In this document: positions 24,968 through 30,659 of the stretch, one piece after another | Position numbering within the stretch: position 1 is the first letter of the stretch | Layout: each line of letters opens with the position of its first letter | DNA from: Leucobacter salsicius M1-8 | Lineage (GTDB): Bacteria; Actinomycetota; Actinomycetes; Actinomycetales; Microbacteriaceae | Assembly: GCF_000350525.1 (NCBI RefSeq) | Contig: NZ_AOCN01000001.1 | Coordinates: forward strand, 1 to 64,000 | DNA length: 64,000 nucleotides | Reading direction: 5' to 3' | Notes under the pieces: generated by a model | Seen by the model: only the letters and a program-made list of their open reading frames with translations | Told to the model about the DNA's origin: nothing | Database searches by the model: none | Program-made: the position numbers and the translations under genes

Positions 24968-25717
24968 CTACTCGTGGGCGGCCCGGGCCGCCATGCGGTC
25001 GACCGCAAGACGCAGCGCGCGATCCGGATCAACGCCCGCCGCATTTGCCCGCGTTACGAGCGCGAGCATCGCGTCCCCGATCCCGGCCTCCGCAAGCCGC
25101 TGCCCATCGGGGCCGATGACCGCGGTGAACGGATCCTCGTGCGTGCCCTCGAGCGCACTCGGATCGATGAGCCGGGCCCGTTTGAGCCGCTCCACGACCT
25201 TCGCAGCGCGCGCCAGCGACGGCATGCCCGCCGGCACTCCCTCGAGCGGGCTGCGCGAGCCCCGGGTCTCCCCTGCCGCGTCCTCCTTGAGGCGCTCCCA
25301 CTCGGCCTCAAGCTCTTCGAGCGACATGTAGCCGCGCTCGCCAAACACGTGCGGGTGGCGGGCGATGAGCTTCTGGTTCAGGGAGCGGGCGACCGTGTCG
25401 AGGTCGTAGCCCTCGCCGTCGCGCTCGGCGATCGCCGCGTGAAACAGCACTTGGTAGAGCACGTCGCCCAGCTCTGAACGCACCTCTTCGGCGGGGAGCC
25501 CCCGCTCGATCGCATCGATCAGCTCGGCAGTTTCCTCGACGAGATACGGAGTGAGCGATTCATGAGTTTGAGCTTCGTGCCAAGCGCACCCGCCCGGCGA
25601 CACCATGGTGCGCACCGTCTCGCGGAGCGCGAGCAGCGGGTCGTCGTCTCCCACGGGAGACGTAGCCAGCGGGGTCGGCTCGGGCGGTCGGTCTGGACTT
25701 CTGTGGTCAGTCGCCAT
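24968..25717 (-). CDS. mazG: Nucleoside triphosphate pyrophosphohydrolase (MazG)
   Basis: House-cleaning pyrophosphatase of 249 residues that hydrolyses (aberrant) NTPs to NMP and PPi. CAWHEAQTHESLTPYLVEE, AELIDAIE and ELGDVLYQVLFHA provide the Mg-binding E-E-x-D pattern of the first MazG domain; the second half is shorter and more divergent. The usual CPWD motif is altered to CAWH. Start at 25717 (MATDHR); a TAGTGT box ends seven bases before it. In mycobacteria mazG lies next to mfd; here two lipoprotein genes sit between. Confidence 0.9.
   Translation of the reverse strand: MATDHRSPDRPPEPTPLATSPVGDDDPLLALRETVRTMVSPGGCAWHEAQTHESLTPYLVEETAELIDAIERGLPAEEVRSELGDVLYQVLFHAAIAERDGEGYDLDTVARSLNQKLIARHPHVFGERGYMSLEELEAEWERLKEDAAGETRGSRSPLEGVPAGMPSLARAAKVVERLKRARLIDPSALEGTHEDPFTAVIGPDGQRLAEAGIGDAMLALVTRANAAGVDPDRALRLAVDRMAARAAHE
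25021..25030. repeat. GATCCGGATC site 7
   Basis: Exact palindrome near the 3' end of mazG, coding Asp-Pro-Asp in AAGVDPDRALR. No further exact copy occurs for the next 19.5 kb. Confidence 0.9.
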
Positions 25718-25724
25718 ACAAAAA

Positions 25725-25730
25725 ACACTA
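25725..25730 (-). promoter_or_regulatory. Leaderless -10 box of mazG
   Basis: TAGTGT on the minus strand, seven bases before the ATG, with only T-rich sequence between and no ribosome site. Confidence 0.5.
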
Positions 25731-25738
25731 GCCCGCCA

Positions 25739-25755
25739 CACGGCTGTTAGCCTTT
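25739..25755 (+). promoter_or_regulatory. Promoter of lipoprotein gene 1
   Basis: ACGGCTGTTAGCCTT contains an extended -10 (TGT-TAGCCT at 25748-25753), leaving a leader of roughly 55-60 bases. The same 15-base word precedes lipoprotein gene 2. Confidence 0.55.
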
Positions 25756-25815
25756 GATTCGTACATCGAACGCTCAGACAACTCGTCTCCATAGACATCG
25801 GGGAACCAGCCGCAC

Positions 25816-26301
25816 ATGCTGAATTGCAAGACCATCACCCGCGTTACGGGCGCCCTCGGCGTGGCAGCTCTCGCACTCAGCCTCGCAGCGTGCTCGGGCG
25901 GTCAAAGCGTGGCTGAGGCCTGCCAGATTGCACAGGACTCAATAGCTCAAGCGAGTGATCAAGTGGACCAACTCATGTCGGAAGCCGTGTCGGGCGGCGG
26001 CACGATGAAGGATCTGGTTGACCCGCTGAATGATGCGCTGGATGGTGCCGAGAAGAAGGTCACCAATCCCGAGGTGTCCGCCGCGCTCAAATCCATGAAT
26101 AGTGAGTTTGTGCGCCTGGGCGATCTACTGGAAGGTGTACCGCTGCCCGACACGCAAGATATTGATCCGGACGCTGCGGCTACGCCCGAGGAACTCAAGA
26201 CCGAAGAAGCTCTCGAGGCAATCAGTGGTGAGCTCGAGAAACGAAATGCAGCACTCGAACAGGCCGACATGCAGCTGCAGGAACTCTGCGGCGCGAGCTA
26301 G
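25816..26301 (+). CDS. Putative lipoprotein, paralogue 1
   Basis: Exported lipoprotein of 161 residues: signal peptide, then lipobox LAACSGG with the lipidated Cys near 26. The mature part is acidic and mostly helical, with the only other Cys residues in EACQIA near 36 and in LQELCGAS at the end, which could form a disulfide. It shares SLAACSGGQSVAEAC and the overall layout with the next gene. No known domain is recognised. Function unknown; surface location on the outer face of the membrane is inferred from the lipobox. Confidence 0.88.
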   Translation: MLNCKTITRVTGALGVAALALSLAACSGGQSVAEACQIAQDSIAQASDQVDQLMSEAVSGGGTMKDLVDPLNDALDGAEKKVTNPEVSAALKSMNSEFVRLGDLLEGVPLPDTQDIDPDAAATPEELKTEEALEAISGELEKRNAALEQADMQLQELCGAS

Positions 26302-26358
26302 CGCGGTTCGTACGCGCGCGAACGATAGGCAACATGTGCTGCGGGCTACTCCTGCGAA

Positions 26359-26373
26359 ACGGCTGTTAGCCTT
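26359..26373 (+). promoter_or_regulatory. Promoter of lipoprotein gene 2
   Basis: Second copy of ACGGCTGTTAGCCTT, with -10 TAGCCT at 26367-26372 and a similar leader length, so the duplication included the promoter. Confidence 0.55.
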
Positions 26374-26436
26374 GAACTGCACACCGATCATTCAGAGAGT
26401 GCACGATCTCGTGCCCCCCAAGGAGTCTCAAAACCT

Positions 26437-26922
26437 ATGTCGATTAGCAAGACCACCTCAAGGTTCGCCGGCGTACTCGGCGCAGCAGCCCTCGTGTTCA
26501 GCCTCGCAGCATGCTCGGGTGGCCAGAGCGTCGCTGAGGCGTGCAAAGTTGCAGAGAAGACCGTGTCTGAGGCCCAGGCCGACATGGAGACCGCTGTTAC
26601 CGAGGCCATGTCGGGTGAGGGCAACTTCAGCGACCTGTTCACAGGCGTCAACGATGCCCTGGTGAAGGCAGAAAAGGAAGTTCAGAACGCCGAGGTCTCC
26701 GACGCACTCAAGGGCATCTCAACTGACTTCAGCAAGGTTGGCGAGGTCTTCAAGGACTTCAAGATGCCTTCGATGGACGACATCGACTACACCGATCCCG
26801 AGGCAATGGCTGAGCTCGAGGCAATGAGCGCTGAGCTCGAGGCCAAGAGTGGCGAGCTCGAGGAGCTCTCGGCCTCGCTCGAGAAGTCGAGCACCAAGCT
26901 GCAGGATCTCTGCAACATCTAA
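26437..26922 (+). CDS. Putative lipoprotein, paralogue 2
   Basis: Same length (161 residues) and plan as the preceding gene: signal peptide, lipobox LAACSGG, EACKVAEK with a conserved Cys near 36, and terminal LQDLCNI. The C-terminal third is a Glu-rich heptad-like segment (ELEAMSAELEAKSGELEELS), probably a coiled coil. An AAGGAG site lies 13 bases before the ATG. Tandem duplication followed by divergence in the middle region is the simplest history. Confidence 0.88.
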   Translation: MSISKTTSRFAGVLGAAALVFSLAACSGGQSVAEACKVAEKTVSEAQADMETAVTEAMSGEGNFSDLFTGVNDALVKAEKEVQNAEVSDALKGISTDFSKVGEVFKDFKMPSMDDIDYTDPEAMAELEAMSAELEAKSGELEELSASLEKSSTKLQDLCNI

Positions 26923-26960
26923 GTTGCACACCAGGCACGGTCACTTTGGCCGTGAGCGAA

Positions 26961-26994
26961 TGAGGCGGGTCACACTCGGGTGTGACCCGCCTCA
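26961..26994. terminator. Hairpin terminator between lipoprotein 2 and mfd
   Basis: Perfect 15-bp stem TGAGGCGGGTCACAC / GTGTGACCCGCCTCA with a TCGG loop, followed by GACGTTT. It serves the convergent pair. Confidence 0.85.
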
Positions 26995-26999
26995 GACGT

Positions 27000-29900
27000 T
27001 TACGCCTGGGCGGTAACCGCCGGCGGATCCTCTTCGAGCAGGGTCGCCAGCACCCGGCCCGTCCACGCGGCAATGTCACTCTCGTCACCCATCAGCTTCT
27101 GCCCCACGCCGGCGAGCGGGCTCCGCGATGAGGCGGTCCCCCCGGGCAGCGGGATCTTGAGCGACTGGGTTGCCTCGGTGTAGGTGGCCCCCGGGTACAT
27201 GCGCTTCATGCGCATGCGGCGAGAGTCAGCGATCTGTACGGGCTCGATGCGCAGCACCGTGCCCGCGGCAACCACCTTTGACAGGCCGAGGCGGGCCGCC
27301 CGACGCCGCAGCTGTGACACCGCCGCAAGGCGCTCCACTTCAAGCGGCGGCGGCCCGTAGCGGTCCTTGAGCTCCTCGAGCACGAGCTCGACGTGGTCTT
27401 CGGGGGCCTGCGGGTGCGAGGCCGCCGAGAACTTTTGGTAGGCCTCGAGGCGCAGCCGCTCGCTCTCGACGTATTCCTCGGGGATGTGCGCGTCGACCGG
27501 CAGCTCGAGTACGAGCTCGACGGGGCCCGAGACCTCTTCACCCTTGAAGGTGTTGACGGCTTCGCCGATCATACGTAGGTACAGGTCAAACCCGACCCCC
27601 GCGATGTGACCCGACTGCTCGCCGCCGAGCAGGTTGCCGGCACCGCGCAGCTCCAGGTCTTTGAGCGCCACCTGCATGCCCGACCCCAGTTCGTTGTTGG
27701 TCGCGAGGGTCTCCAGGCGCTCGTGAGCGTGTTCGGTGAGCGGCTTGTCGGGGTCGTAGAGGAAGTAGGCGTAGGCACGCTCACGGCTGCGCCCCACACG
27801 TCCTCGCAGCTGGTGCAGCTGGCTGAGCCCGTACTTGTCGGCGGCGTCGATGATGATGGTGTTGGCATTGGCGATGTCGAGCCCGGTCTCGATGATCGTG
27901 GTCGACACCAGCACGTCGTACTTGCGCTCCCAGAAGTCCTGCACCACCTGTTCGAGCTGGTGCTCCCCCAACTTGCCGTGCGCGATTGCGACGCGGGCGT
28001 CGGGCACGAGCTCGGCGATTTGGGCCGCCACGCGACTGATCGAGCTGACGCGGTTGTGCACGAAGAACACCTGCCCTTCGCGCAGCATCTCGCGGCGGAT
28101 CGCCGCGGCGATCTGCTTGTCGCTGCGGGGCCCCACAAACGTCAGGATCGGGTGACGATCTTCTGGGGCAGTGGCGAGGGTCGACATCTCACGGATGCCG
28201 GTCACCGCCATCTCGAGTGTGCGGGGAATCGGGGTCGCACTCATCGCGAGAATGTCGACGTTGGTTTTGAGCTTCTTCAGCGCGTCCTTGTGTTCCACGC
28301 CAAAACGCTGTTCCTCGTCGATGATGACGAGCCCCACGTCCTTGTACAGCACGCTCTCCGACAGCAATCGGTGCGTTCCGATCACCATGTCGACAGTGCC
28401 CGCGGCGAGCCCCTCGATCGTCTCGCGCGACTCCTTGTCGGTCTGGAATCGGCTGAGCGGGCGCACGTTGACGGGGAAGCCTGCGAACCGGGCCTGGAAC
28501 GTCTCGAGGTGCTGGGTCACGAGCAGCGTCGTCGGCACGAGCATCGCCACCTGCTTGCCGTCTTGAATCGCCTTGAACGCGGCACGCACCGCGATCTCGG
28601 TCTTACCGAACCCCACGTCGCCCGCGACGAGCCGGTCCATGGGCACCTGGCGCTCCATATCGCGCTTCACCTCGTCGATCGTGGTGAGCTGATCGAGCGT
28701 CTCGGCGTAGGCGAAGGCCTCTTCAAGCTCGTGCTGCCACGGGGTGTCGGGCGAAAACGCATGCCCCTTCGAGGCGACGCGAGCCGAGTAGAGCTTCACA
28801 AGCTCGACCGCGATGTCGCGCACCGCCTTGCGCGCCTTCTTCTTGGCATTGGCCCAGTCGTTGCCACCCATCTTGGACAGCGCCGGCGCCTCACCGCCCA
28901 CGTATCGCGACAGCTGATCGAGCTGATCGGTGGGCACGTAGAGCTTGTCACGAGGCATACCGCGTTTCGTCGACGCGTACTCGATCACGAGGTACTCGCG
29001 CAGCGCCTTCGTGGCGTCACGCCCGATGCCCGTGGGCACCATGCGCTGCGTCAGTTCGACGAATCGCCCGATGCCGTGCGTCTCGTGCACGACGTGGTCA
29101 CCCGCGACCAATTTGAGCGGGTCGACTACGTTCTTGCCGCGGCGGCGCGCAAGCTTCTGCCCGGTCGCGGCCTGAGCGCTTGCCGCCCGGCCAAAGAACT
29201 CGGCGCCGGTCGCCAGCAGCAGCTGCGCTTCGGTGTTCTCGAAGCCCGCGGGGGCGGAGCCCACGACCAGATAGATCACGCCCGCGTCGAGCTCGGCGAG
29301 CGATGCGGGGAGCTCGTCAACGATGCGCGCGGCGGCTCCCGCCTCCGCGAGCACGTCGCGTGCGCGCTCGACGAGTCCGGCCCCCTGTGCCGTAATGATT
29401 GCGCGCCAGCCGGCCTTCAGTCGCTCGCCGATGACACGGATCGCGCCGCCAGTCGGGTCGCTCTCAGCCGCGGGCCGGGGGAATGGGCCGCCAGCAACCG
29501 TGATGGTGCGTACGCTAAACGTGTCTTCTTCGGACAGCTCGGCGCCCTCGTCGTGCACGAAACTCGAGACTGTCCACCAGGGCCGGCCCTGGGAGGCGGC
29601 TTTGAGCTCGGTCATGGTCAGCATGCCGCTGTCCTCGGTGGGCACCGGCGCATCGGCGCCGGCGGTGGCCGCATACCAGGCGGCCTCGAGAAACTCGCGA
29701 TTCGTCTCTGCGAGGCTGACCGCACGGCCCGCGACGCGCTCGGGCGACGCGACCAGCACGGCCCCGCCCTCGGGCAGCAGGGCGGTGAGCGGCCGCAGCC
29801 CGGGCACGAGCTGCGGGATCAAGCTCTCCATCCCCTCGACCGCAATACCCTCGCTGAGCTTCTCGAGCATGGCGCCGAGCGCGGGGTACTGCGGCAGCAG

Positions 29901-30659
29901 CTCGGCCGCGCGCGCACGCACCTCGTCGGTGAGCAGCAGCTCGCGCGCGGGCCACAGCTCGATCGCTTCGATCGGTTCCCCGGCGCTGCGCTGATCCGAC
30001 ACCGCGAAGTGTCGAATCTGGTCGATCTCATCGCCGAAGAAGTCAACGCGGGAGGCCTGCGACGCCTCGGGCGGAAACACGTCGAGGATGCCGCCGCGTA
30101 CCGCGAACTCGCCGCGTCGCGTGACCATGTCCACGCGGGTGTATGCGCGTGCGACCAGTTCGCGGGCCGCGGCGGCGGGGCCGGATCCGGATTCAAACGT
30201 GGGTTCCTCCCCCGCGCGCAGCACGAGCGGGGAGGCCTGCGCGACCTGGGGCGAGACGGGCTGCAGCGCGGCACGCACCGAAGCGACCACGATGAGCGGC
30301 TGAGCGCCGTCGTGCTCACGGATGGTGCGCAGTACCTTGGAGCGTCGGCCAACGGTCTCGGGGCTGGGGCTCAGCCGCTCATGCGGCAGCGTTTCCCAGG
30401 CAGTGAACTCGCACGTGCGAGCCTCGGGCATGACCGAGCCAAGTGCGCTGCGCAGCGCGTCGGCCTCGCGGCTCGTCGCCGCAATGACGAGCAGCGCACC
30501 GGTGTCCCCCGCGGCACGGCGGCGGCGCATCAGGCCCGCGATGAGCGGCGCCCGCATGCCCTCGGTCGCAGAGAACTCTGCACCGCGACTCGCAGCGTCG
30601 AGCGCGCGCGCGAACGATTCGGCGGGCTCCAGCAGCCGGTCGATGCCCCCGAGGCTCAC
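27000..30659 (-). CDS. mfd: Transcription-repair coupling factor (Mfd)
   Basis: ATP-driven translocase of 1219 residues that removes RNA polymerase stalled at DNA lesions and recruits UvrA. The N-terminal UvrB-like module (about 1-350), the RNA-polymerase-interaction domain near 490-560 (GDHVVHETHGIGRF), the helicase core with Walker A GDVGFGKTE near 665 and Walker B IIDEEQRFG, the RecG-like TRG part and the C-terminal D7 domain are all present. It overlaps pth by four bases and is translated from the same message. Confidence 0.97.
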   Translation of the reverse strand: MSLGGIDRLLEPAESFARALDAASRGAEFSATEGMRAPLIAGLMRRRRAAGDTGALLVIAATSREADALRSALGSVMPEARTCEFTAWETLPHERLSPSPETVGRRSKVLRTIREHDGAQPLIVVASVRAALQPVSPQVAQASPLVLRAGEEPTFESGSGPAAAARELVARAYTRVDMVTRRGEFAVRGGILDVFPPEASQASRVDFFGDEIDQIRHFAVSDQRSAGEPIEAIELWPARELLLTDEVRARAAELLPQYPALGAMLEKLSEGIAVEGMESLIPQLVPGLRPLTALLPEGGAVLVASPERVAGRAVSLAETNREFLEAAWYAATAGADAPVPTEDSGMLTMTELKAASQGRPWWTVSSFVHDEGAELSEEDTFSVRTITVAGGPFPRPAAESDPTGGAIRVIGERLKAGWRAIITAQGAGLVERARDVLAEAGAAARIVDELPASLAELDAGVIYLVVGSAPAGFENTEAQLLLATGAEFFGRAASAQAATGQKLARRRGKNVVDPLKLVAGDHVVHETHGIGRFVELTQRMVPTGIGRDATKALREYLVIEYASTKRGMPRDKLYVPTDQLDQLSRYVGGEAPALSKMGGNDWANAKKKARKAVRDIAVELVKLYSARVASKGHAFSPDTPWQHELEEAFAYAETLDQLTTIDEVKRDMERQVPMDRLVAGDVGFGKTEIAVRAAFKAIQDGKQVAMLVPTTLLVTQHLETFQARFAGFPVNVRPLSRFQTDKESRETIEGLAAGTVDMVIGTHRLLSESVLYKDVGLVIIDEEQRFGVEHKDALKKLKTNVDILAMSATPIPRTLEMAVTGIREMSTLATAPEDRHPILTFVGPRSDKQIAAAIRREMLREGQVFFVHNRVSSISRVAAQIAELVPDARVAIAHGKLGEHQLEQVVQDFWERKYDVLVSTTIIETGLDIANANTIIIDAADKYGLSQLHQLRGRVGRSRERAYAYFLYDPDKPLTEHAHERLETLATNNELGSGMQVALKDLELRGAGNLLGGEQSGHIAGVGFDLYLRMIGEAVNTFKGEEVSGPVELVLELPVDAHIPEEYVESERLRLEAYQKFSAASHPQAPEDHVELVLEELKDRYGPPPLEVERLAAVSQLRRRAARLGLSKVVAAGTVLRIEPVQIADSRRMRMKRMYPGATYTEATQSLKIPLPGGTASSRSPLAGVGQKLMGDESDIAAWTGRVLATLLEEDPPAVTAQA

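Follow-up and report, generated by a model that had tools for sequence, protein, structure and literature searches.

The lipoprotein gene pair and its promoter element

Two genes encoding 161-residue lipoproteins, LpA and LpB, lie in the gap between mazG and mfd in the window, by which the whole 64,000-nucleotide stretch of Leucobacter salsicius M1-8 DNA analysed here is meant (Table 1). Both are transcribed away from mazG and towards mfd, in agreement with a preliminary description of this DNA, in which the pair was read against both neighbours. Both open reading frames are also present as described there, each with an inner and a terminal Cys and with the lipobox LAAC at residues 23-26, by which the products qualify as bacterial lipoproteins. 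The signal peptide of LpA holds a fourth Cys, C4, and the chains end in CGAS (LpA) and CNI (LpB). That the genes are duplicates is supported by 47% identity across 157 residues (E 2e-33); they are the sole two copies in their own genome, where the third match has an E-value of 0.08. The inverted repeat between the ends of LpB and mfd overlaps the mfd stop and is a possible shared terminator of the two genes; a scan for consensus terminators found none.

Table 1. Features of the mazG-mfd gap and its flanking genes
Feature	Position	Strand	Basis and details
mazG	24968-25720	-	ORF list
Promoter element ACGGCTGTTAGCCTT of LpA	25740-25754	+	Extended -10 TG-T-TAGCCT; TAGCCT at 25748-25753
Likely ribosome-binding site of LpA, GGGGAA	25800-25805	+	Read from sequence
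LpA, 161-aa lipoprotein	25816-26301	+	ORF and translation; lipobox Cys26, presumed clasp of inner Cys36 and terminal Cys158
Promoter element ACGGCTGTTAGCCTT of LpB	26359-26373	+	TAGCCT at 26367-26372
Likely ribosome-binding site of LpB, AAGGAG	26420-26425	+	Read from sequence
LpB, 161-aa lipoprotein	26437-26922	+	ORF and translation; lipobox Cys26, presumed clasp of inner Cys36 and terminal Cys159
Inverted repeat where LpB and mfd converge	26951-27004	.	25-nt arms, 84% complementary
mfd	27000-30659	-	ORF list

The same 15-mer, ACGGCTGTTAGCCTT, precedes both genes, 61 bases from the ATG of LpA and 63 bases from that of LpB. The copied promoter with an extended -10 that had been proposed is therefore real, but its first copy begins at 25740, one base later than the start of the range first given (25739). 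The degree of identity between the proteins, together with a 15-mer at near-equal distances from the two starts, is not a matter of chance. Its 11-base core, GGCTGTTAGCC, occurs twice in the 3.19-Mb genome, both times at this pair; however, the rarity of the core alone proves nothing, since the same string read backwards is found three times. What tells against chance is common descent of the element, since a species with a single copy (locus L008) carries GGCTGTTAGCCT about 65 bases 5' of the gene. The strings TGTTAGCCT or TGATAGCCT, with a like -10, stand 62-66 bases upstream in L006, L007, L008, L035, L063, L067 and L071, and many other orthologues are without them. The element reads as an ancestral core promoter, an ordinary extended -10, which would have been copied together with the gene. 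A function as the mark of a regulon was rejected, as the core is found only at these two genes in the genome.

A promoter scan, of a kind that does not cover extended -10 sites, gave no -35/-10 pair, and no RNA family of Rfam matched within 25500-27200. The leaders of LpA and LpB fold no better than shuffled sequences (z 0.95 and -0.54), and the six leaders taken from orthologues comprise two that fold well (z -2.8 and -2.1) and four that do not (-0.04 to -1.3). In the Leucobacter leaders L062:5948-6003 and L075:5880-5937 (z -2.8 and -2.1 against shuffles), a hairpin pairs the ribosome-binding site.

Distribution of the family and divergence of the two copies

With LpB alone as query, 22 of 60 genomes were matched at E 0.01 (its own included), all of its own genus and several weakly. 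Profile A1, made from 21 members, found matches in 46 of the 48 genomes searched in the genus (E 1e-4); in G1023 the match is to the signal peptide only, and a few others are partial. When 299 genomes of the same taxonomic family were searched with a profile, 122 were matched at E 1e-3, many by the signal peptide only, and 48 (counted from the match listing) at E 1e-9 or better; the latter comprise eight of the own genus and 40 from 18 other genera, which places the lipoproteins in other Microbacteriaceae as well. Of the 22 named relatives, ten loci are from Leucobacter, 11 from Microbacterium or a MAG of that type and one from Corynebacterium kalidii. At E 1e-5, profile A4 (26 members) had matches in 34 genomes among 297 of the order and in 25 among 396 of the phylum; both tallies contain a few that touch the signal part alone. 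Eighteen of the 25 phylum matches fall in one genus with genomes of 7-11 Mb, which by its genome size and gene context looks like Streptomyces. LpA and LpB belong to an unnamed, widespread bacterial lipoprotein family and are not a local oddity; the small cell-surface family of the preliminary description gives way to one that is near-universal in the genus, widespread in Microbacteriaceae and present farther out in the phylum. At L021/L028 (G036:C2:626073-626583), a family gene is apparently split over two frames, either as a pseudogene or by sequencing error.

Within the genus, mazG lies no farther than 1.5 kb away in 13 of the 16 loci L004-L019, a count that leaves out the window locus and weaker matches. 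Among the ten named Leucobacter loci it is found within 1 kb in nine, and mfd follows in eight. The pair had been seen as an interruption of two genes that are adjacent in mycobacteria; it is not an interruption peculiar to this strain, since the gap beside mazG is the usual place in the genus. A second, distant paralogue of 182-188 residues stands at the same mazG place in some species (L062, L005).

No constant partner gene was found in the loci read, and the neighbours vary by genus (mfd/mazG, HlyIII with TetR, M6 protease, rph/Ham1). An M6 metalloprotease gene lies downstream in 8 of 11 Microbacterium-type loci, and HlyIII and TetR genes, named by Pfam, are the neighbours in L064. Other loci have icd, nagB, carD/murB or menB/menE as neighbours, names given by reading the translations with no search behind them. 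In the Streptomyces-like loci L109, L112 and L117 the gene stands between rph and a Ham1-type gene, and in L115 beside rph only, the Pfam names behind these assignments coming from L109 only. Tandem copies recur, with three in L042 and L061 and two in L044, L057 and L059; the densest array seen, at L090 (G589:C7:71286-73941), packs five family matches, on both strands, into 2.7 kb. These recurring tandem copies and the varied neighbours indicate that the family is prone to duplication and that its gene tends to stand free. The mazG-side gap is its normal place in the genus, and local duplication is ordinary for it.

Two further observations concern the neighbours. The metalloprotease of L068, L069, L070, L072, L073, L074, L076 and L078 is InhA-like and encoded on the same strand, and it could be a partner there. 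The Ham1-type pyrophosphatase beside L109, L112 and L117 recalls mazG, another NTP pyrophosphatase, in Leucobacter, which is probably a coincidence.

A tree with 38 rows places LpB together with the one copy that genome G005 has (L008; support 99/96), and LpA joins them with 86/79; this suggests, with moderate support, that the duplication predates the split between LpB and L008. The end branches in the same tree measure 0.085 for LpB, 0.72 for LpA and 0.97 for L008. Codon adaptation, corrected for amino acids and referred to the genome's own ribosomal genes, places LpB above 40 of the 44 window genes (ORFs picked by script; z +2.3) and LpA above only one of them (z -4.3), which is worse than chance. 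The corrected value of LpB, 0.18, is on the low side of the 13 reference genes (0.10-0.35). GC3 amounts to 0.65 in LpA, 0.79 in LpB, 0.82 in mazG and 0.86 in mfd. With codon weights taken from this genome's ribosomal genes for the other species too, the family gene leans to ribosomal codons in all 22 named loci and tops its own locus in 10 of them; when amino acids are left uncorrected it is highest in 15 of 18 rows, a figure that overstates the bias. Judged by codon use, LpB looks well expressed and LpA does not.

A separate question, compatible with any reading of the function, is whether LpA is a decaying or foreign copy without a role, so that only LpB matters. The low GC3 of LpA beside that of mazG and mfd, its codons and its long end branch compared with LpB all point that way; however, it keeps an intact reading frame, lipobox, promoter element, ribosome-binding site and Cys pair, its structural model is as confident as that of LpB, and low codon adaptation is also found in the single-copy L008 (0.438). 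Decay or foreign origin is considered less likely than not.

Conserved cysteines and predicted fold

The conserved Cys pair of the preliminary description was borne out across the family. When the translated ORFs of the fetched loci were searched with the A4 profile, 112 distinct hits were obtained, of which 97 have Cys in all three columns; this census includes the A4 rows, some of which had been chosen by a Cys filter, and its loci were fetched with profiles containing Cys. Taken column by column, Cys is present at the lipobox in 103 hits, at the inner position in 110 and within the last nine residues in 111, and the nine hits without the lipobox Cys are Streptomyces-like or partial alignments. 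With a profile in which every Cys was masked, all 109 full-length hits (at least 90 model positions covered) carry a Cys among their last nine residues. The same holds for 83 of 83 after removal of the A4 rows, and 82 of these have at least one more Cys inside. The masked search also gave two short hits, one of them the signal part of the split G036 gene.

AlphaFold2 models of LpB (25 input sequences, pLDDT 80.6) and LpA (21 input sequences, pLDDT 82.7, model id m3d4ebbf6668d) each contain four helices, at 32-58, 64-81, 85-104 and 121-160 in the former and at 32-57, 65-81, 85-105 and 124-160 in the latter. The predicted fold is a four-helix bundle, and the Glu-rich helix noted earlier, here the last one, is supported. 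In both models one Cys of the pair falls in the opening turn of helix 1 and the other in the closing turn of helix 4, and in an up-down-up-down bundle these two turns share one end, next to the lipid. A disulfide between Cys36 and Cys158/159 would likely clasp the membrane-side base of the bundle; against this, the disulfide might form between molecules instead. A VKOR gene is present in the same genome (E 4.6e-33, over the cut-off), so exported disulfides can probably be made. Besides the Cys, the most conserved mature positions are N84, V87, F98, L75, P121, L155 and Q30, a set of a few cap-like and core-like residues that is not catalytic-looking and would speak for a scaffold and not for an enzyme. 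With the two Cys left out, no significant excess of conservation is seen at the membrane end, as 17 of 113 rotations reach the difference.

The two proteins had been described as not linked to a known domain, and neither LpA nor LpB, nor any of eight distant relatives, reached the cut-off of any model in Pfam or NCBIfam. For the remaining members of A1 (21) and A4 (26), judged by E-values alone, the best values were 8.8e-5 (OVT1) and 5.1e-5 (TIGR03545). The model of the Cbp1 family lipoprotein, NF052320, hits 2 of 26 members weakly, with an E-value of 0.00019 at best; its cut-off of 90 bits compares with scores of 21 for L062 and 17.1 for LpB. ApoLp-III, PF07464, is likewise a weak hit (3 of 26 members, E 0.00075 at best, known here by E-value alone), and both are probably helical low-complexity matches. 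In PHROGs, which has no cut-offs, the best E-values were 0.0033 for the window proteins and 0.00062 within a set of eight proteins, both to head scaffolding proteins. Among PDB sequences the matches were to designed coiled coils and similar proteins (best E 1.5e-5), and those to LpqE and Cgl2664 cover the signal-peptide part. Foldseek gave no structural match at E 0.001. Structural matches are at bundle level only, the best with a Z of 8.9, and a Z below about 13 may mean merely a common arrangement of helical bundles; a known fold was rejected, as no structural relative stands out among the families listed. Clear similarity to a characterised lipoprotein family, which would have spoken against the claim, was looked for by profile and structure search and was not found.

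The family was likewise not found in the titles or abstract openings of the open PMC literature on Leucobacter or Microbacteriaceae lipoproteins, actinobacterial four-helix lipoproteins and spanin2, nor in excerpts of a Clavibacter secretome paper. An identity of the Streptomyces-like gene with bdtA was ruled out, as bdtA is SCO3328/SLI3328, a DNA-binding or regulatory protein according to excerpts of two papers. On the locus tag SCO2903 the open PMC literature yielded no paper.

Possible role and comparison with known systems

LpA and LpB may act as stable, non-enzymatic membrane tethers or adaptors for exported proteins, with a disulfide clasp and a division of labour between the copies, a reading to which we assign a probability of roughly 0.38; its anatomical part is strong, and the function is what we infer from it. 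After export and lipidation at Cys26, each protein would sit on the outer face of the cytoplasmic membrane, where a nine-residue linker would lead from the lipid anchor into the up-down-up-down four-helix bundle. The disulfide of Cys36 with Cys158/159, presumably made by a VKOR-type oxidative folding system of the host, would join both chain ends beside the membrane. The bundle would hold or assist exported proteins of the cell envelope, as the four-helix lipoprotein PdcF does. LpB would be the well-expressed main copy, and LpA a diverged copy with the same promoter type, probably expressed weakly or conditionally. The tether or adaptor was taken as first choice because the anatomy is like that of PdcF.

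The codon adaptation seen in LpB, and in family genes of other loci, would also suit an abundant and passive envelope lipoprotein, a spacer between membrane and peptidoglycan or a wall contact that resembles Lpp of Gram-negatives and has no dedicated partner. The varying neighbourhoods and the lack of catalytic-type conservation fit such a spacer as well, the Lpp/OprI model Ala_zip_lipo (NF040598) touches 2 of 26 members (best E 0.0034), and some relatives (L066, L040, L042) end in Lys, as Lpp does. However, neither LpA nor LpB ends in Lys, and LpB reaches 7.6 bits with this model against a cut-off of 43, LpA not being listed, so that a spacer is regarded as rather doubtful. Quite unlikely, and more so than the spacer, is a bundle whose core takes up a small ligand or lipid, to be passed on or signalled to a membrane protein; kinase and chemoreceptor sensor domains, or apolipoproteins, bind ligands in this way. 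The top structural rows do include the KinB sensor domain (Z 8.7), the ligand-binding domain of PcaY (Z 8.5) and apolipoprotein E3 (Z 8.3), but all lie in the range that may reflect only the common arrangement of helical bundles, and no kinase or transporter is a constant neighbour in the loci read.

The name of the NCBIfam model spanin2_1 (NF037950) would imply a lysis lipoprotein of phage type, which is extremely improbable. This is the best-scoring named NCBIfam model for four Streptomyces-like proteins among the eight distant relatives, which match it over most of their length at 25-31 bits (best 30.8); L062 reaches 20.4 bits, LpB 14.5 and LpA 12.8. All remain below its cut-off of 100 bits, spanins of PHROGs appear only at E 0.06-0.09, and the family is near-universal in the genus and stands beside housekeeping genes. 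At E 1e-4 the model matched none of 246 genomes of the phylum, but this shows little, as the control genomes were silent too. Nothing else here speaks for lysis.

The family is real and well delimited, unnamed as far as the libraries show, and its presumed Cys clasp is striking in being all but invariant. Near-universal within the genus, it also has relatives in Microbacteriaceae, in one Corynebacterium and apparently in Streptomyces, and no Pfam or NCBIfam name stands above the cut-off for the proteins tested singly. The fixed clasp offers a direct handle, since a protein with it would be expected to be a substrate for oxidative folding. According to an excerpt of one study, mdbA catalyses oxidative folding and its deletion is lethal in many Actinobacteria (PMC9974433). 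If LpA and LpB are true adaptors for exported enzymes, the PdcF principle, described only recently, would reach into another phylum. A wider reading, in our view unlikely, would make an actinobacteria-wide class of disulfide-clasped four-helix lipoproteins a general membrane-side adaptor; this would be a counterpart of YkyA/PdcF of independent origin, tandem-multiplied and VKOR-dependent, and in Leucobacter one copy would be a major envelope protein and the second a differently expressed variant.

The comparison behind the favoured tether or adaptor rests on PdcF of Bacillus anthracis, described in an excerpt of the published report as a predicted four-helix lipoprotein and co-factor of the deacetylase PdaN (PMC12700454). 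YkyA/PdcF (PF10368) and LpA/LpB have in common an N-terminal lipid anchor and a predicted four-helix bundle. Searched up to an E-value of 10, this genome, the window proteins included, yields no PF10368 match, and the cut-off of 28.8 bits is not reached; among family members the model matches 2 of 21 at a best E of 0.0013 and none of 26 at 0.01. A further difference is that no deacetylase is present among the ten neighbour proteins put through Pfam. The all but invariant Cys pair is a trait of the LpA/LpB family. The Staphylococcus aureus protein of unknown function 2ap3, which we take to be a YkyA structure, aligns over 139 residues with a Z of 7.9, within bundle noise. The best guess, by analogy, is that LpA and LpB would work like YkyA/PdcF without being members of that family.
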